Source: a virus
Reading direction: 5' to 3' (one strand)
Virus record (IMG/VR): IMGVR_UViG_3300021351_000053
Location: 1-35,664 of that record
Length of the DNA: 35,664 bases
Shown here in pieces: positions 6,559 to 15,026 of the stretch; within the stretch, counting starts at the first letter, position 1; every line of letters starts with the position of its first letter. A program made the position numbers and the translations under genes. The notes beneath the pieces were generated by a model. It saw only the letters and a list, made by a program, of their open reading frames with translations. It was not told where the DNA came from and searched no databases.

Positions 6559-9500
6559 TCACATGGGAGGAGAAGCAGCAGACCGGAAGGCCCCGCGAAT
6601 GTCCATCATGAGGCCCCCTAGCTCCTTCAAGCGTCGGGTAGTATCTCGGCTTTCTCTGAGAACTTTTGAAAGCTTATCATTGGCCTTTCTTTCGGCCTGT
6701 TTTGAGCCGTCGAAACCTCTGCGCCAGTCCTGTTTTGAAACCGATGTCATGAGCTTTGACAAGCGTACATCAAGGTCTCCCTTGAGAATGGCATCACGTT
6801 GATCCTCGGGACTCATTCCCTCCATTCTCATTTTTTCTATATCAGCTTCCCTTTTGCCCTTGTCCATATCTTCCTGGCTCTTCTCTTTCATCACAGCCGC
6901 CGCTTCATCCTCGCTGAACTTGTAGAGATGCATCAAAACCCACCTGGTTCCCACGTCCTCTTTCATCCGAGACGCAAGATCCGCTGTGGCACTCATTACC
7001 TCCACCCGCGCCAATTCCAGAATTTGACTCGGAACATTCATCCTGATGTCATAATCCGCCTTGGCATTCATCCCCTTGGCTATCAAATGGATTCGACTGG
7101 CTTGACGATAACCACTCCTGATTACCCGCTGAATTCTCATTATCGTTCGAGCAAACCTAATGTCCTCGCTCGATAAGGCGTTTCTGGTGCTCTCCCCACC
7201 ATACCCCATGTATGTCTTGGGAATTTTGATGGAACTGACCAGCTTGTCCCTGTGGTATTCCAGGGTATCCGTTTCTGAGTAGTCTGGGCCACTGATAACA
7301 TCGATCTCTGTTGTTCTTTTACCCCCGCGCACGGGCACGAAGAAATCCTCATCCATCGAGTTGCGAACAAAGACGCCTGACCCATAAATTGTCTTTTTAT
7401 TTCCATCTCTTGCGAGTAATGCAAAATTATGATGCTTGCTCACTGTCATACAGTATTGATCTTGATTCTTTACCTTCCTAACCGAAACAACCTTATGATT
7501 ATTGGGCTCAACCAAAACATTTTCTTTGAATGCTATAAAATTTTCAAAACCAAGGAATCGATACATCTTGAGCAACATATGGCGATGAACTTTTTTTACA
7601 TTTCTATTTCGCTTTCCACCATGCTCTCTGAGAGTCTCAACCAAATGCTCATTCACACCCCTAACAATATCTTCTGCACCAGCTTTCGGGTTCTCTCGGA
7701 TCAAAGCCTTGACTCCAGAAATGAACTCTTCTGGAAAAACAAGCTTCATCCTCTTTTTTGCTTTTCGAGCCCTTTCCGGATCAGCCCACATCTCAGCTTT
7801 CAATTGACTCCTAACAATATTGTCTTCTTTGTGTTTTTCTGAATTGTTATATTCAATAATATGCTTCTTGGTGTTGTGTAGCCGATTCAGAATTGACGTT
7901 CTTTTTCTCTTCTCATCACTCTTGTTGTAAGCCGTTATGGATTTGGAATGAACATCAAAATGCCTTTTTGCATGCTCAAAATTACTCAATACTTCTAAAT
8001 TAACAGGCTCATTATTTCGCTTGTTTTCATCCTTATGATGAGTCACCCACTGACCATTAATACCCTCAGCCAATGTTCGAGCCATCACACGATGAGAAAA
8101 CTCTTTTCTTTTTACAACAGGATTATAGACAAGCTCGTATCCATCAAGCGACTTACTAGCACTAATGCTCCTGTAAAGAGGCATCACACTGTCGCCAGGC
8201 TTCAAATCTTCAGCATTGGCATAAGTTGTATCCCGGCGCATCACAGGATGATCAGGGGCCATTTCAGCCCAATTGCCGTCATCAAAAGTCACCCTTACTG
8301 TTTCTGCATTCTCCCTCGTTTTACCAACCCACTCAACTTCACCAGGAGTAACGCCCCCCGTCTCATGGTCTATCGAATAAACCCAATGTTTTTTTCCTTT
8401 GTCATACTCTTTCGCCATTTGCTCGATAGTGATATCCCTGCCATCCAATAATGGAATCGGTGTGCTTGCGGCCACAGGAAGCGGATTAAAACGCATGTCC
8501 AACTTGCCGTCCGGTTTTACAAACTTTTGGCGAGTGAAGGAGTTCTTGACCTTGTTGACAAAAGCCAGCCCCCGCTCGGCATCAAGCTCACCCACATCGA
8601 TATAAAAGGCATATCGAGCAGGAGCCCTCTCCAGCTTGTAGATCAAGAGAGCATCTTCCAAAAGAGCCAATCTCTTCCAAATCCACCTGGCCGGATCGAT
8701 GACTGCGCCTCCATAAACCGACCTAAGATGCTTGCCCCTGAGCCTCCAATGAACCAGCTCCCAGTCCTCAAAGACCGTCAGCTCTCCAGGGTTGCGCCCC
8801 ATTGCGGCTGGGACCTTCGCCCCCTCCTTGCCACTTCGATACGCCTGCTGCGCACTGGCCAAAGCATAGAAATCTTCCAAAGAGAGATTGAACTCACCCC
8901 TGATGTCCTGAATGAAACCAATGAGCTGCCCCCTGGGTCCTTCGACCCTCCTGACCGTCGGCGGAGGGAGATAACTGAGCCCCACGAGCCCTTGATCAGT
9001 GACTAGAGCCTCCCCATAGACGTTCCCGTATTTGCAGAGGGTTCGCACCACGCCCCAGATGTCGTCCTCAATCAGAAGCTGCTTATGGAGCATATGATTC
9101 AGCTCATCAGCAATCTTCTTGTCTTCGGAGGTCGCCCAGATGGCCTGTTCACGGTCGAGGTCTGGGCTGGTCGCATCATCGGCGTAGATATCGAGCCCAC
9201 AATTATGAACAAAAACCGACCCTCCATTTGAAGTCCCAACCGCAAAATTACGATATCCAGGAACCTCCAAATCAAATACCTCTTCATCACCTACATACTC
9301 AACAGAAACAACACGATGATTTAAATATTCACTATCACCAAGCTTTGGACCATTGAGGTTTGAACCAAGAATTTCCTGGTCCAATCCATACTGAGCCATT
9401 CTTCTGGCCAAAGTGTTCCAAGATACCTTCAATTTCCGAGCTGCCTCACTCACAGATAAAGACGCACGAAGAGAAGCCTCAACAACATCCGGAGCCAAAG

Positions 9501-10545
9501 GAATTCCACTCTTCTTATAACGTCCTTTTTTGCTACTCAACTCTTTGGTCAACCATGATGAACCTTTCTCATCATGAAATCGCTTTTGCCCATCCAAAAT
9601 TCTTTTGCGACTCTCAATATCTTGCCACTGACCCTTAACAGCTTTCGATATCTTACTCCTACGAACTTCCTCGTATTCTCCACGCTGGTGATGATTGATA
9701 TGTCCTTTTCTCGTCATTATTTCGAGGTTGCTTGGCCTTGGGTTCGCCTTGTTCTCATCCCTATGATGGACGCACTCTCCACGCTCTAACAACCTTCCTC
9801 GCATCGCCTGAGCCACAAGACGATGAGTATCTGTGTATAAACACCCACCACTTTGTGTTTTTTGCAATGGCTCATAAATAGAATGATACCCACTCTTTCT
9901 TATTTTGAAGGTACAAGGCATCAACCTGTCATTTGGCTTTAAATCCTCAACGGGCTTGTACTCACCATTTCGCATCATAAATAAATGGTCACCTGTTGCC
10001 TTGATAGACCATTTTTTCGTGCGCCTGAAATCCTGATAAGTCACCTTATATACAGGTTTTACGCCTTTTGGTATGGGTCCTTTCGCCTTCGCAACAACCA
10101 CTTTTCCTGATTTGTGATCAAAAGCATAGACAAGCAATTCCTTATACTTGCCCTCTTCATAGTCCTTCGCCAATTCCCCTATGGTTTTACTATTTACCTT
10201 GACAATGCTCATGTCATCTTCTATATTAGCTCTACCCGCAGAGTCAACATAAAATACCGACATATCAGCAGAAATACAGGATACTTCGGGATATTCATCC
10301 ATCTCTTCATAGTCAGCGAAGCGTTGCTGGAGGTCTTGGTCGATCCTGAGATAATTGGCCAGCGCATCATAGCCGAATTGATTTACCAAATTATAAGGAA
10401 GCCCCGCCATCGAAACCGCCGGGGTACCACCACGTTGAAGCTCTGCCGCTTGCCTTTGAGGGGTTCTTGCGAAAAACGACCGCAGGGCATTACCCACGTT
10501 GGCCGTGAAACCCTCCCAAAGCCGTCTACTTCCTACTTCTGCCAT
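6559..10545 (-). CDS. Portal protein, T4 gp20-like, interrupted by two inteins
   Basis: A 1328-residue precursor; removing inteins at residues 90-448 and 690-1062 leaves about 596 residues, comparable to T4 gp20 (524). Portal features in the exteins include DEYPEVS joining to CGLDIYADDAT, VVRTLCKYGNVYGEALV, WELVHWRLRGKHLRSVYGGAVIDPAR, and after intein 2 SMDEDFFVPVRGGKRTTEID with YHRDKLVSSIKIPKTYMG. This order matches T4-type portals. The protein forms the dodecameric DNA channel and head vertex that docks the terminase. Its ATG overlaps the TAA of the terminase gene (TAATG). The C-terminal 150 residues are charged and helical. Both inteins must be excised for a continuous portal fold. Confidence 0.9.
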   Translation of the reverse strand: MAEVGSRRLWEGFTANVGNALRSFFARTPQRQAAELQRGGTPAVSMAGLPYNLVNQFGYDALANYLRIDQDLQQRFADYEEMDEYPEVSCISADMSVFYVDSAGRANIEDDMSIVKVNSKTIGELAKDYEEGKYKELLVYAFDHKSGKVVVAKAKGPIPKGVKPVYKVTYQDFRRTKKWSIKATGDHLFMMRNGEYKPVEDLKPNDRLMPCTFKIRKSGYHSIYEPLQKTQSGGCLYTDTHRLVAQAMRGRLLERGECVHHRDENKANPRPSNLEIMTRKGHINHHQRGEYEEVRRSKISKAVKGQWQDIESRKRILDGQKRFHDEKGSSWLTKELSSKKGRYKKSGIPLAPDVVEASLRASLSVSEAARKLKVSWNTLARRMAQYGLDQEILGSNLNGPKLGDSEYLNHRVVSVEYVGDEEVFDLEVPGYRNFAVGTSNGGSVFVHNCGLDIYADDATSPDLDREQAIWATSEDKKIADELNHMLHKQLLIEDDIWGVVRTLCKYGNVYGEALVTDQGLVGLSYLPPPTVRRVEGPRGQLIGFIQDIRGEFNLSLEDFYALASAQQAYRSGKEGAKVPAAMGRNPGELTVFEDWELVHWRLRGKHLRSVYGGAVIDPARWIWKRLALLEDALLIYKLERAPARYAFYIDVGELDAERGLAFVNKVKNSFTRQKFVKPDGKLDMRFNPLPVAASTPIPLLDGRDITIEQMAKEYDKGKKHWVYSIDHETGGVTPGEVEWVGKTRENAETVRVTFDDGNWAEMAPDHPVMRRDTTYANAEDLKPGDSVMPLYRSISASKSLDGYELVYNPVVKRKEFSHRVMARTLAEGINGQWVTHHKDENKRNNEPVNLEVLSNFEHAKRHFDVHSKSITAYNKSDEKRKRTSILNRLHNTKKHIIEYNNSEKHKEDNIVRSQLKAEMWADPERARKAKKRMKLVFPEEFISGVKALIRENPKAGAEDIVRGVNEHLVETLREHGGKRNRNVKKVHRHMLLKMYRFLGFENFIAFKENVLVEPNNHKVVSVRKVKNQDQYCMTVSKHHNFALLARDGNKKTIYGSGVFVRNSMDEDFFVPVRGGKRTTEIDVISGPDYSETDTLEYHRDKLVSSIKIPKTYMGYGGESTRNALSSEDIRFARTIMRIQRVIRSGYRQASRIHLIAKGMNAKADYDIRMNVPSQILELARVEVMSATADLASRMKEDVGTRWVLMHLYKFSEDEAAAVMKEKSQEDMDKGKREADIEKMRMEGMSPEDQRDAILKGDLDVRLSKLMTSVSKQDWRRGFDGSKQAERKANDKLSKVLRESRDTTRRLKELGGLMMDIRGAFRSAASPPM
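7360..8478 (-). mobile_element. Intein 2 of portal (Pro1, class-3-like, HNH)
   Basis: Residues 690-1062 of the precursor (373 aa). The block A pattern aligns as PVAASTPIPLLDG with Pro at position 1 instead of Cys or Ser. Block B reads APDHP, so the usual Thr is Ala. Block F has Tyr-Cys-Met where Tyr-Asp-Leu is usual (Cys1032), and the end is VRN followed by Ser, so the penultimate His is Arg. Splicing would join FNPL to SMDEDFF. An HNH endonuclease domain is visible at about 833-862 (VTHHKDENK, then NLEVLSN and HAKRH). Pro1 plus block F Cys is known from class 3 inteins such as the mycobacteriophage Bethlehem DnaB intein. The Trp and Thr of their WCT motif are not evident here. Confidence 0.8.
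9202..10278 (-). mobile_element. Intein 1 of portal (HNH type)
   Basis: Residues 90-448 of the portal precursor (359 aa). It starts CISADMSV and ends VFVHN, with Cys449 as the first downstream residue, so it has standard Cys1, His-Asn and Cys+1 chemistry. Block B is ATGDHLFM and block F is VFDLEVPGYRNFAV. The homing domain is HNH (CVHHRDENKANPR, then NLEIMTRKGHINHH at about 258-286). A helix-turn-helix module (SVSEAARKLKVSWNTLARRM, about 364-383) may help target DNA. Its HNH region resembles that of portal intein 2, so the two are probably related. Confidence 0.9.
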
Positions 10546-13500
10546 TATCCCCTCGTGAAGGGCATCGGCATATTTTTCGCCGAAACCTTTTGACCAACCA
10601 TACCTTGTCGACCCCCTCTCTGACCAGACGAGGGAGGAACCATTACTTTACCACCTGTCACCCAGGAATCGTCTCTCACTTCGGTCATTGAATTCCTGCC
10701 AGAGGTCAATGGTGCCATTGGAAGCCCTGGTTGACGAGTCATCAGACTGTGAACTCCACCCGCCAAGCTATCTGCTAGATCTTTTTCTCCCCTAGCCGGA
10801 TGGTCAATCATGAATTTTGGAATAACACCCTTGGTTTTTTGCACCCTCTGAAGGGCTCGAAGCTGTCGCTGAATCGTTACATTGTCCTGAAGTCTCAGCC
10901 GATTCTCGTAAAGAGCGATTTTTAGAGATTCATAAGGAACCGTTGTTTTATCCACTGACAACACATCAGACTCAATTCCTCTGGTTTTGAATTGCTGCCT
11001 AGTGTCAGCACTTTGAAAACTGTCCATCGAAGCGTAGCTAATCTGAAACCCATGTGACAAAAACTCATAGATAATGCCCCGGATATCCCCCAGAAAAATC
11101 TCATCCCCTGGAGGAGGAATGATTTTCAGCATAAAGTCCGTTTCAATGACAGGAGCGACCTCTTCGTAAGACTCCCCACCAGCATCACGCCTGGTGACTT
11201 CCGTATGTCCTGCAATGTGAAGGATCGTGAGGCCAGCACAGTCACCCGATAACGAAGGGTCAATATGAGCATATCGAACCGCCCCTGGATGTCGAATGGG
11301 TCGCCAAGCTTCCTCAGTGAAGCCACCAGGAATAGCCCTCTTATATGGAATTGCTACCCTCTCCCACCAAAACTCTAAGGGATCACCACTCATCCACTCT
11401 TCTACATCAACAGGGCTCTTCAATGTCTCATCAATAGCCTCTGCGATTTTTTCCCTGCGATGGATAAATAAACTAACACTCTCGGTCGCAATTCCCGCAA
11501 TATCCCTGAGAGCACCCTCTAAATCAGCATCGAAATCAGGGAAATATTCCTCTGGTACATCAATGATCCGAAGCTGTGACTGTTTATACCACTCAATATC
11601 TTCTGGGGATGGCTTTATCTTTGAACGAACGGTTTCATTACCAACAGCAATCTGAAAAGTTTTTCCACTAAAATTATCAACGGGCTTCACGCTCCAAGTG
11701 CTGTAATCCCTCAAGAAAACATCAGGAGATTGTCCTGATCGGGCTTCTTCTATTTTCTGCTCAATGAAGGTTACAGGCTTCTCTTTGGAGCTGACCAAGA
11801 ACATCAACCCTGGAAGTTTTCCAGCCTTCATGAATCGAGATTTCATCCTTCGAATAATGGCCTTGGTCAAAACCTCGCTCTTATCGACCTCTACCAGCCG
11901 CCCTGTTTTGTCGAGTTGACGCCTGCCACCCATGAATGAATTATGAACAACCACACCTTCTGCAATAAAATTGCCATGTGGTGAAGACATTATGTCAAAA
12001 GTTTCACAGCTTCCCGAACTTGTAATTGAGACAACCCTGGCCAAATATCCCTTTCGTCCCAAACTTTGAAGGTCCACCCCTTTATCCTGCAAAAGATGCG
12101 ACAAGCCTCGAATTTCGCCTTGTTCTTCCCGCTGTAACAAAACCCCTTGGGCTTTACCTCTATAATCTCCACCGACCCGTCTATCTTCTCTATTCTGAAA
12201 TCTGGGATTGTCGAATACATCACACCGTCGAATTCGAATGGTATTCTCAATGGCTCGTACTCGAAGCTCAAAATTGTCTTGTCGTTGTCGAATATCCCTA
12301 TAACATGCTTCTCCCACAGCGACCTGTAAGCACATTTTCCTGCCTTTTTCGTGCTGACATATCCCATAGGAGGCCATTCCTTCGAGGACATGATCTCGCT
12401 GAGTTTCTGCCTTGTTTTCCTTGAATGTTTGAAATTCCTTGTTTTGTTTCTTTCGGAAAGGTTTCGTTTGAAATCTTCTGTGTGCCTGAAAGAACGCTTT
12501 ACCTTGTCCATCTTCGTCCTGTATTCTGGGTCTTTCCACCGTTCCTTCAATCTCTCTGACTGTTTCTCCCTCTCTTCTTCTGTCCACCCCTTCCGCTCTT
12601 TTGGCGGACGCATTCTCGCCCTTTCCCTGTCCACATGCTCCTTCAATTTCTCGTCTGGCACACCATTGACATCTATCCCTTGCTTTATAGCTTTCGTTCT
12701 GATGTTCGACAGCTTTATCTTTTGCTTTGTTTCCTCGGACCTCTTCCTTTTTTTCACACCTGTCTTCGTCTTTGACATTTTCTCTCTGGACTCTTTGGTG
12801 TGCTTTTTTCCAAAAAACGGATTTTTCCTGCCCCGATGATTTCTCGACATCAACAATCACCACCTCGTCACCAATCCTGAGATCCGCGACCCTAACGTAC
12901 CCCTGCCCTTTCACCAGAAATGGATGCTTTGATGTGGCCCTGATAACTGTGCCGTTATCCAATTCAACACTATAAACAAAAGTATCTGTCGCTCTTTTTA
13001 TCGTACCAATCGAAGGCACAACATCCCCAGTGCGCTCTATATATGCCATAATAGGAGTAATAGTCCCATCATGTTTATATAAATCATAAATTTCCTTATA
13101 CCCTTGGGAGGTTAGGATTCTTGTATCACCAGACAGGCACATCTCGTCCAGAAAACCACTAAAAACGTTCGTCCCGATTGCCGCGCTGGATGTTGACCCC
13201 GCTACCACAATTATTTTTTTGGTAGGAAAACGAATTTCATACATTGTTTGAGCGATTTTATAGGGGCACTTCTCTTTGAAGTATGGGCTAAGTTGAAGCT
13301 TTGACCCCAACTCAGCAAGGGGAACTCTTCTGGCCGCCTCCCTTGTAGCTGAAAGAATAGCAACAGCCAGCGCCGTTCCTTTGGCTAATCCATACACTCT
13401 CTGGGGTTCTGCCAGGCATGAAATTTGATATAAAATGTAAGCAAGTCCACATGTTGCGAAGAAACTATTGTGAACAACGATTCCATTGATAACTGCATTT

Positions 13501-15026
13501 TGAGTCTCAGGCACACTCAGGTCATAAACATCATGGATTCCAATGTCCGTGACCGATTCCACCCGCTCCCAAACAATGTCGTCCACCATGTCCGCAAATT
13601 TTCGATACCTGCCTTTGTACCCTGTGGCCTCACACAATCGCTTGAAACGCTGGGCACCCATACATGAGCCATCAGCCATGGCAGCAAGCTTTCTCCATTG
13701 CTTGTTGTTATGCGGCCCTGTCTCCTTGCGAATCTCCTTCAATTCCCTGTTGGTAATAGGCACCACATCCCAGTTTGAATTAGGCTTTTCAACCGCCCTG
13801 GCCTGAAATATCAAACGAGAACATGCCCCCTCCTTGCCAGGGATAAATCCCACATGTTCCATAAATAAGAGCTGATTGGGAACATCAGCTATCTGAAGAC
13901 GCCAAGCATCAAACTCCCCATCTTGATTCTTTTTCCTCCGATAGCTCTTTCTCGCTGCAACACCAAATCGCCTGAGAAGATACTGAATGTCATCAATCAA
14001 TCCCTCAGACGCCAGCGTGATTTCAATCTTTCTCGGAGAACCCGTGTAAACATTCCCATCAGTAAAAAGCCACCTGAGAAACAAAGAAAGCTGTTCATCA
14101 CACAGCCCAAAATACTCACCAGGCACACGCTTCTTTTTTGACAAACATCGAATCCCAAGTTTCTCGGTCCAATCTTGAAGCCCACTCAAAAAAACAGAAG
14201 GTTTCCTTTTGTCTTTTCTCCAAGCACTAAATCCCTGAATAGAATGCGCTCGTTTAACAATCTCATCCCGTAATACAACATTACCCTTGGTATAACTTGT
14301 AATAGTCCGCTCGGTCATGCCACCGTCAGCTATCAACGCCGCCGCAACAATCACCTCATCATCAGTCACTTTCAAAGGACTCAATGGAGCAGGAACCCGC
14401 CTTGCCACCGCAACAAAATCACCCTTGCTAAGCTCCCCTATTGGCTTATACCCATTTGGGCACAACACAGGATGATCAAGACTCACCTCCAGCCAATGCC
14501 CAGAAACAAGAGTCATTTTTGAGCATCTCTTTTGACCAGACTTCCAAACCTTGCTTGACCGCCTATGAGAGACTTTATTTCTACCATCTAAAGAAGGGAC
14601 CAAAGGAGTCAAACCAACAGCTTGACTTATCTTGAATCTTCTGCCAGATTCACCATCTACAAAATAGGAGTTTTCGGTTCCACATTTCCCCCATCCGAGC
14701 GAACCAGTCAAAATTGCTTCAGAATATCCTCCCTCAAACAGTTCAACAAAATCATCCTGAAGCTTGGGCCACATATTCGAGCCCACAGCCCCTAGATAAT
14801 ACTCATCAAGCAAAAAGGTTCGTGGAGAAACAGGCTCCTCAACATATTCAATATTGATGAACTCATCGAGCACATCATTTTGACCCTGCTCCAGCTTGTC
14901 GAGGTAATGAATAAATGCGGCTTGTTCGTCGGGGCTCATTGCCTCCAACGAATCAACCATGTCTTTGACGATTTCTTCCTCAGTCCGGACGGACCTCGGC
15001 CTTCCACCAATAATCTCGATAGCCAT
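10545..15026 (-). CDS. Terminase large subunit, gp17-like, interrupted by two inteins
   Basis: A 1493-residue precursor; removing inteins at 115-520 and 630-1029 leaves 687 residues, close to T4 gp17 (610). The Walker A box is GSLGWGK|SFFAT with intein 1 between Lys114 and Ser521. The Walker B box is FSGFLDEM|SFM with intein 2 directly after the DEM. The C-terminal part has RNase H-like nuclease signatures: YAHIDPSLSGDCAG, ISYASMDSF and the final EKDLADSLAGG. The ATPase half powers DNA translocation into the prohead and the nuclease half cuts concatemers. The ATG overlaps the TGA of the upstream gene (TGATG), and the stop overlaps the portal start. Without splicing neither ATP-site motif is intact. 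Confidence 0.93.
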   Translation of the reverse strand: MAIEIIGGRPRSVRTEEEIVKDMVDSLEAMSPDEQAAFIHYLDKLEQGQNDVLDEFINIEYVEEPVSPRTFLLDEYYLGAVGSNMWPKLQDDFVELFEGGYSEAILTGSLGWGKCGTENSYFVDGESGRRFKISQAVGLTPLVPSLDGRNKVSHRRSSKVWKSGQKRCSKMTLVSGHWLEVSLDHPVLCPNGYKPIGELSKGDFVAVARRVPAPLSPLKVTDDEVIVAAALIADGGMTERTITSYTKGNVVLRDEIVKRAHSIQGFSAWRKDKRKPSVFLSGLQDWTEKLGIRCLSKKKRVPGEYFGLCDEQLSLFLRWLFTDGNVYTGSPRKIEITLASEGLIDDIQYLLRRFGVAARKSYRRKKNQDGEFDAWRLQIADVPNQLLFMEHVGFIPGKEGACSRLIFQARAVEKPNSNWDVVPITNRELKEIRKETGPHNNKQWRKLAAMADGSCMGAQRFKRLCEATGYKGRYRKFADMVDDIVWERVESVTDIGIHDVYDLSVPETQNAVINGIVVHNSFFATCGLAYILYQISCLAEPQRVYGLAKGTALAVAILSATREAARRVPLAELGSKLQLSPYFKEKCPYKIAQTMYEIRFPTKKIIVVAGSTSSAAIGTNVFSGFLDEMCLSGDTRILTSQGYKEIYDLYKHDGTITPIMAYIERTGDVVPSIGTIKRATDTFVYSVELDNGTVIRATSKHPFLVKGQGYVRVADLRIGDEVVIVDVEKSSGQEKSVFWKKAHQRVQRENVKDEDRCEKKEEVRGNKAKDKAVEHQNESYKARDRCQWCARREIEGACGQGKGENASAKRAEGVDRRREGETVREIEGTVERPRIQDEDGQGKAFFQAHRRFQTKPFRKKQNKEFQTFKENKAETQRDHVLEGMASYGICQHEKGRKMCLQVAVGEACYRDIRQRQDNFELRVRAIENTIRIRRCDVFDNPRFQNREDRRVGGDYRGKAQGVLLQREEQGEIRGLSHLLQDKGVDLQSLGRKGYLARVVSITSSGSCETFDIMSSPHGNFIAEGVVVHNSFMGGRRQLDKTGRLVEVDKSEVLTKAIIRRMKSRFMKAGKLPGLMFLVSSKEKPVTFIEQKIEEARSGQSPDVFLRDYSTWSVKPVDNFSGKTFQIAVGNETVRSKIKPSPEDIEWYKQSQLRIIDVPEEYFPDFDADLEGALRDIAGIATESVSLFIHRREKIAEAIDETLKSPVDVEEWMSGDPLEFWWERVAIPYKRAIPGGFTEEAWRPIRHPGAVRYAHIDPSLSGDCAGLTILHIAGHTEVTRRDAGGESYEEVAPVIETDFMLKIIPPPGDEIFLGDIRGIIYEFLSHGFQISYASMDSFQSADTRQQFKTRGIESDVLSVDKTTVPYESLKIALYENRLRLQDNVTIQRQLRALQRVQKTKGVIPKFMIDHPARGEKDLADSLAGGVHSLMTRQPGLPMAPLTSGRNSMTEVRDDSWVTGGKVMVPPSSGQRGGRQGMVGQKVSAKNMPMPFTRG
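11940..13139 (-). mobile_element. Intein 2 of terminase (Walker B site), with a gene in another frame inside
   Basis: Residues 630-1029 of the terminase precursor (400 aa). It starts CLSGDTRI and ends EGVVVHN with Ser+1; block B is ATSKHPFL, and block F is ETFDIMSSPHGNFIA, so the splicing parts are standard. The middle, residues about 726-1000, shows no endonuclease motif in this frame and looks like arbitrary highly charged sequence (KKEEVRGNKAKDK and similar). The same bases in the +1 frame encode a coherent PD-(D/E)XK endonuclease, listed separately. The intein frame nevertheless stays open throughout, as splicing needs. Confidence 0.9.
11990..12850 (-). CDS. Homing endonuclease in +1 frame inside terminase intein 2
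   Basis: A 286-residue protein from ATG 12850 (in-frame TTG codons at 12856 and 12853 precede it), read one base downstream of the terminase frame. GGTGA lies six bases before the ATG. Residues 4-50 hold NUMOD3-like DNA-binding repeats (GRKNPFFGKKHTKESREKMS, then RSEETKQKIKLSN); related repeats recur to about 155. Residues 175-235 look like a restriction-fold nuclease: SLWE with Glu180, IPDF with Asp217, and IIEVKPKG with Glu231 and Lys233, a PD-(D/E)XK site. It ends at TAA 11992-11990, inside the bases encoding intein block F, so both frames are functional there. It probably cuts intein-free terminase alleles. The out-of-frame arrangement is highly unusual. Confidence 0.8.
   Translation of the reverse strand: MSRNHRGRKNPFFGKKHTKESREKMSKTKTGVKKRKRSEETKQKIKLSNIRTKAIKQGIDVNGVPDEKLKEHVDRERARMRPPKERKGWTEEEREKQSERLKERWKDPEYRTKMDKVKRSFRHTEDFKRNLSERNKTRNFKHSRKTRQKLSEIMSSKEWPPMGYVSTKKAGKCAYRSLWEKHVIGIFDNDKTILSFEYEPLRIPFEFDGVMYSTIPDFRIEKIDGSVEIIEVKPKGFCYSGKNKAKFEACRIFCRIKGWTFKVWDERDIWPGLSQLQVREAVKLLT
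13467..14684 (-). mobile_element. Intein 1 of terminase (Walker A site, LAGLIDADG)
   Basis: Residues 115-520 of the precursor (406 aa), inserted between the Lys and Ser of Walker A. It starts CGTENSYFVDGESG and ends GIVVHN with Ser+1. Block B is SLDHPVL and block F is VYDLSVPETQNAVI. Two LAGLIDADG helices are visible: VIVAAALIADGG (about 226-236) and LSLFLRWLFTDGNV (about 313-326). Its endonuclease part (EITLASEGLIDDIQYLL, RRFGV, AWRLQI) resembles the helicase intein 1 endonuclease, which sits at the equivalent P-loop site. Confidence 0.92.

Follow-up and report, generated by a model that had tools for sequence, protein, structure and literature searches.

A phage terminase intein whose probable homing endonuclease is encoded as an overlapping gene in the +1 frame

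The 35,664-base IMG/VR virus record analyzed here (the window) encodes a terminase large subunit that carries two inteins. We conclude that the second of these, intein 2, is very probably a contiguous intein of class 1, with its homing endonuclease encoded by an overlapping +1 gene that is nested at the usual endonuclease insertion site. An initial annotation, made from the sequence alone, had proposed a separate overlapping nuclease gene within a contiguous intein, and this remains the best reading in light of codon statistics, eight nuclease relatives, and independent further examples. The nested-nuclease intein is real, functional-looking, and recurrent.

Two reading frames within one intein

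The features of the arrangement are as follows, with positions given in the window.

10545..15026, minus strand: terminase large subunit host frame, a single open frame of 1493 codons carrying inteins 1 and 2
11940..13139, minus strand: intein 2, class 1, 400 amino acids (400 codons, C1...HN then S), between FLDEM (Walker B) and S
12849..13139, minus strand: N-terminal splicing half (C1, block B TSKH, end GDEVVIVD), from alignment, AlphaFold2 (predicted local distance difference test, pLDDT, 72-92), and Foldseek
11940..12041, minus strand: C-terminal splicing half (block F RVVSI...TFDI, block G VVVHN), from alignment and AlphaFold2
12048..12845, minus strand: terminase-frame spacer, residues 99-364 (266 residues), 0 stops, predicted disordered (AlphaFold2 pLDDT <50 almost throughout)
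11990..12850, minus strand: nested nuclease gene, 286 amino acids plus TAA (ATG at 12850, TAA at 11992-11990), in the +1 frame, one base downstream of the terminase phase
12857..12859, minus strand: TGA stop in the nuclease frame, three codons ahead of the ATG
12855..12866, minus strand: Shine-Dalgarno-like GAGGTGGTGATT of the nested gene, inside the codons for GDEVVIV of the splicing domain
12773..12850, minus strand: NUMOD3 DNA-binding motif, nuclease residues 1-26 (Pfam PF07460, 2.2e-10)
12053..12283, minus strand: TnsA-like PD-(D/E)XK catalytic domain, nuclease residues 190-266 (Pfam PF08722, TnsA-like N, 2.7e-10)
11990..12041, minus strand: dual-coding stretch of nuclease tail and intein block F, in which the last nuclease codons share bases with RVVSITSSGSCETFDI

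The coordinates first assigned to intein 2 proved exact, and the terminase frame has the normal splicing blocks ascribed to it. Pfam Intein_splicing (PF14890) spans both ends of the intein in this frame (7.5e-12), and the hallmarks of class 1 are present: a nucleophile at position 1 (Cys or Ser; here C1 of CLSGDTRILT), TxxH in block B (TSKH, with H72 invariant in an alignment of five inteins), and a C-terminal HN followed by Ser, Thr, or Cys (VVVHN/S). The Pfam match and Foldseek matches to the DnaB, RecA, and NrdJ-1 inteins identify a Hint fold; the closest sequence match in the PDB is the NrdJ-1 split intein. When the terminase-frame product was modeled with AlphaFold2, its ends alone folded, as a Hint domain.

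The second gene was likewise as described initially, a 286-residue +1 product with its own ATG, ribosome site, and stop, the end of which overlaps block F. Because a TGA stands in frame before the ATG, the nuclease is a closed open reading frame (ORF) and does not continue an upstream frame. Pairing of GAGGTGGTGATT with the 16S tail amounts to -15.6 kcal/mol, the strongest among 24 starts tested and in the top 0.3% of background; with so strong a Shine-Dalgarno sequence before the ATG, internal initiation would be the simplest expression route. The NUMOD3 motif and a TnsA-like domain with conserved E, D, E, and K residues place the product in the NUMOD3/TnsA type. In an alignment, the catalytic residues E180, D217, E231, and K233 are conserved across diverse relatives, E180 lying just ahead of the Pfam-matched stretch and the other three within it. 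The catalytic domain is predicted by AlphaFold2 with pLDDT mostly 86-98, and its best solved match by Foldseek is Tn7 TnsA (1t0f, 1f1z).

Stop codons are avoided in the terminase frame

Given this overlap, a stop can arise in the terminase frame only where a T in the last position of a nuclease codon is followed by a codon starting with AA, AG, or GA. T is used at 0 of the 89 codons where it would have this effect, versus 42 of 102 other eligible codons (Fisher 2.5e-14); elsewhere in the window, genes have T in this context at a rate of 31%. Synonymous permutation of the nuclease codons leads to an expectation of 16.8 terminase-frame stops, with a minimum of 7 in 20,000 permutations; with window codon usage, 33 are expected. 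The observed number is 0. For this nuclease protein, a terminase frame without stops would occur with a probability of ~1e-9 under the gene's own (already T-poor) codon usage and ~1e-21 under window usage. The improbability claimed in the initial annotation therefore stands, although its figure of 1e-6, computed as (61/64)^287, was too mild.

The third frame contains 18 stops, so protection is confined to the host frame. In eight other relatives of the nuclease, the frame corresponding to the host frame holds 20-58 stops. The terminase frame of intein 2 is kept stop-free by selection, and chance is excluded; 35 nuclease codons are a single silent C-to-T change away from truncating the terminase. 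The composition of the spacer matches what is expected from the nuclease plus a no-stop rule, and its amino acids look like an unselected by-product of the nuclease frame. Calling the mid-intein terminase frame meaningless, as was done at first, is thus apt for its amino acids but not if taken to mean unconstrained, since stops are selected against.

Recurrence in other phages and alternative readings

A screen for nesting covered ~90 TnsA-domain and 79 HNH relatives, and among these full nesting was confined to three loci (L113, L114, and L115). L113, found with the N-terminal splicing half as the query, has an intein at the Walker A site of its terminase, and a NUMOD4/HNH nuclease is nested in the +1 frame of that intein; the silent-T count there is 0/48 versus 53/97 (Fisher 6e-13). 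L114 and L115, reached via the L113 nuclease and flagged by openness, have the same design in terminases, with nuclease identity of 44-53%. In Vibrio phages CP-T1, 24, and Rostov M3, a helicase intein carries a DUF559 nuclease nested in +1. This nuclease matches 40 phage records, each with one host-frame annotation (often helicase). Eight of these records (from Vibrio phages, Pseudomonas phage MR14, and Corynebacterium phage phi673), picked by nuclease similarity and not by openness, all have the nuclease in +1 and an open host frame, and 0 of their 31-54 sensitive codons end in T. Intein domains are present in the host frames of this group, weakly so in phi673 (1e-4) and MR14 (8e-6). Xanthomonas phage FoX3 carries a LAGLIDADG_2 nuclease (9e-22) nested in the +2 frame of a helicase intein. 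Nine representatives taken together give a silent-T count of 0/454 versus 395/1004, which is a summary and not an independent test because related sequences are pooled. The nested design recurs with three further nuclease families, HNH/NUMOD4, DUF559, and LAGLIDADG. The initial annotation knew of no described intein of this build, but intein 2 is not unique, as these unnoticed examples in public phage records show.

Several candidates were rejected. Locus L190 was flagged by the nesting screen, yet its overlap spans only 89 codons; the LAGLIDADG nuclease of the KLEP7 RNA ligase lies in frame; and the host frames of Campylobacter phage IBB_35 RNR, S16 UvsW, and PM2 UvsW are broken, and these are counted as fractured rather than nested. 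Separately, the intein-bearing helicase of FoX3 (L199:2180-4546, NC_055837) carries the RefSeq label "head morphogenesis," apparently a mis-annotation.

At 11988-11992 of the window (minus strand), the nuclease stop overlaps a terminase-frame ATG in the sequence TAATG, a possible reinitiation site. Reinitiation there could yield a C-terminal piece that trans-splices, as in fractured genes, making intein 2 a cryptic split intein; in L005, L028, and Salmonella phage S16, the two halves of a split intein do flank a related TnsA-type nuclease. We consider this improbable: trans-splicing needs no stop-free host frame, yet stops are strictly avoided, a restart would keep just 17 intein residues, and a TAATG-type overlap is absent from the other nested cases.

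There is a similarly small chance that the spacer is a functional protein domain and no by-product. Across DUF559 lineages, with nuclease identity of 36-59%, host-frame identity is 17-35%, at or a few points above the by-product expectation, and the excess of up to ~7 points in some distant pairs is what such a domain might leave. In L113 and L114, however, the nuclease frames are 44.7% identical and the host frames 26.2%, versus a by-product expectation of 24.8 +/- 2.3%; the fit of spacer composition to that expectation and the predicted disorder also argue against a functional domain.

Two compensating sequencing or assembly errors might have displaced a normal in-frame nuclease, a refutation named in the initial annotation. 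The contig is an IMG/VR virus record and both frame changes fall at domain borders, but a host frame displaced in this way would hold 17-33 stops where none is present, other nuclease relatives do hold such stops in numbers, and cultured phages that were sequenced independently show the design too; we dismiss this reading with near certainty. Nuclease ORFs are common in phage introns, and a group I or II intron within the intein would free the host frame from translation, but neither the window nor nine related loci gave an Rfam match at gathering score, the nuclease ORF takes up the whole insert and extends into block F, leaving no room for a ribozyme, and stop avoidance would go unexplained, making an intron extremely unlikely.

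Proposed function and relation to known systems

In the nested-gene reading that we favor, ribosomes in the terminase frame would cross the nuclease region as a stop-free, disordered spacer, and the Hint halves would then fold and splice intein 2 out. Ribosomes starting at the internal ATG would, judging from the anatomy, make the free 286-residue NUMOD3/TnsA-type nuclease, which may cut intein-free terminase alleles and so drive homing. Terminase relatives 75-83% identical to the host and without either intein occur in L018, L021, and L025. The empty intein 2 site reads FLDEM/AFMGG in L018, L019, L024, and L025; the +1 residue is Ala in those uninvaded relatives and a splicing-competent Ser in the invaded allele. 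In L024 (3933-5015), a relative of the window phage, an HNH-like intein occupies a third terminase site (VRDY/STWDVK).

Some points weigh against this reading. Expression, splicing, and cleavage rest on inference. Searches of IMG/VR and phage records with the full intein host frame found no close relative, which fits an unselected spacer, and comparison of both frames is accordingly limited to the HNH and DUF559 cases. The openness of FoX3 is statistically weaker (3.3 stops expected, P 0.008), and several other nested nuclease starts lack a Shine-Dalgarno sequence.

Because insertion of an out-of-frame nuclease would usually break the host, such inteins may have arisen either from rare donors with an open companion frame that became fixed or by passage through a split stage. 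It is possible, though we advance it only tentatively, that inteins coded in this overlapping way form a widespread, long-lived class of mobile inteins that has so far gone unrecognized, formed independently with at least four nuclease families and representing the missing intermediate between ordinary and split inteins. If so, one silent C-to-T change would place a stop in the host frame, and a downstream restart would then turn the gene into a fractured one, which offers a concrete way for split inteins to originate. Intein 2 shows that the nuclease of an intein can be encoded by a second gene within one stretch of DNA; nuclease and splicing protein would then be made separately and could be regulated separately. 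The arrangement is also a strong natural case of overlapping genes in which selection acts on the sequence of one frame and, in the other, mainly against stops. Nested nucleases escape gene finders because the host ORF covers them, and the number of homing nucleases in the helicases and terminases of phages is therefore underestimated.

Our literature search found no description of a contiguous intein with an out-of-frame nuclease, in keeping with the initial annotation, but a relevant 2025 preprint (Gosselin et al.) lay outside it. That work, "Actinobacteriophage Inteins: ... Non-Canonical Architecture," is cited beside a remark on overlapping reading frames in PMC11855218, and priority for the design is uncertain. 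The phi673 paper notes a helicase intein that is absent from phi674, a phage 85% identical to phi673, and does not report the nested nuclease in that passage (PMC6132909).

An out-of-frame nuclease is in itself not new, as examples outside inteins have been published. In the ShiLan element (Arsenault et al. 2025, PMC11855218), the frame of a mycobacteriophage methylase gene stays open across an HNH ORF that is out of frame with it, as the terminase frame does across the nuclease of intein 2. ShiLan lacks an intein splicing domain, no ribosome site is detectable in it, and it is predicted to remain in the non-essential methylase, whereas the carrier in intein 2 is a splicing-competent-looking intein in the terminase, with Hint blocks and a strong Shine-Dalgarno sequence.

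Canonical full-length inteins, including terminase intein 1 and both portal inteins of the window, share with intein 2 the flanking of a nuclease by Hint halves at the same site. In them the intein frame itself encodes the nuclease, which forms one protein with the splicing domain, whereas that of intein 2 is in +1 with its own start and stop. Four inteins lie in two adjoining structural genes (6559-15026, minus strand), with LAGLIDADG, nested TnsA-type, and two HNH nucleases. One of them, portal intein 2 (7360-8478, minus strand), which contains an in-frame HNH, looks like a class 3 intein: it has no N-terminal nucleophile (it begins P-V-A-A-S-T), YCMTV occurs in its block F, and a Trp precedes block B. 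The terminase-frame product of intein 2 resembles a mini-intein in having no nuclease domain, but it has a 266-residue by-product spacer, and the nuclease gene persists in the other frame.

Fractured genes, reportedly described by Dassa and colleagues in 2009, consist of a split intein and, separating its halves, a free-standing homing endonuclease. As in intein 2, the nuclease is a gene of its own at the endonuclease position of the intein, between the splicing halves, and L005, L028, Salmonella phage S16, and Proteus phage PM2 have a nuclease of the same NUMOD3/TnsA family in that position, the PM2 nuclease being assigned by synteny and sequence, without a Pfam scan. L005 (2595-6023) is an atypically split, fractured terminase: the break is at Walker B, the N-terminal intein piece is short (~33 residues), the C-terminal piece is long, and the gene between them encodes a NUMOD3/TnsA-type nuclease. 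L028 (2065-4478; LR745208, a 485-kb phage) is a fractured gene with a TnsA-type nuclease between intein halves. In S16 (L195:1814-4540) and PM2 (L193:1814-4546), the UvsW helicase is split by a nuclease ORF that overlaps both halves and is annotated merely as a hypothetical protein between helicase pieces; that of S16 is of the NUMOD3/TnsA type. In Campylobacter phage IBB_35 (L200:659-5249), an RNR gene marked as intein-bearing has frames broken around a nested coding sequence and is probably fractured. In these systems the host gene is broken in two. Intein 2 has the free-standing nuclease between its halves, but its host gene is not in two ORFs: the host frame is continuous (1493 codons, 0 stops), so that intein 2 is one polypeptide and would splice in cis.
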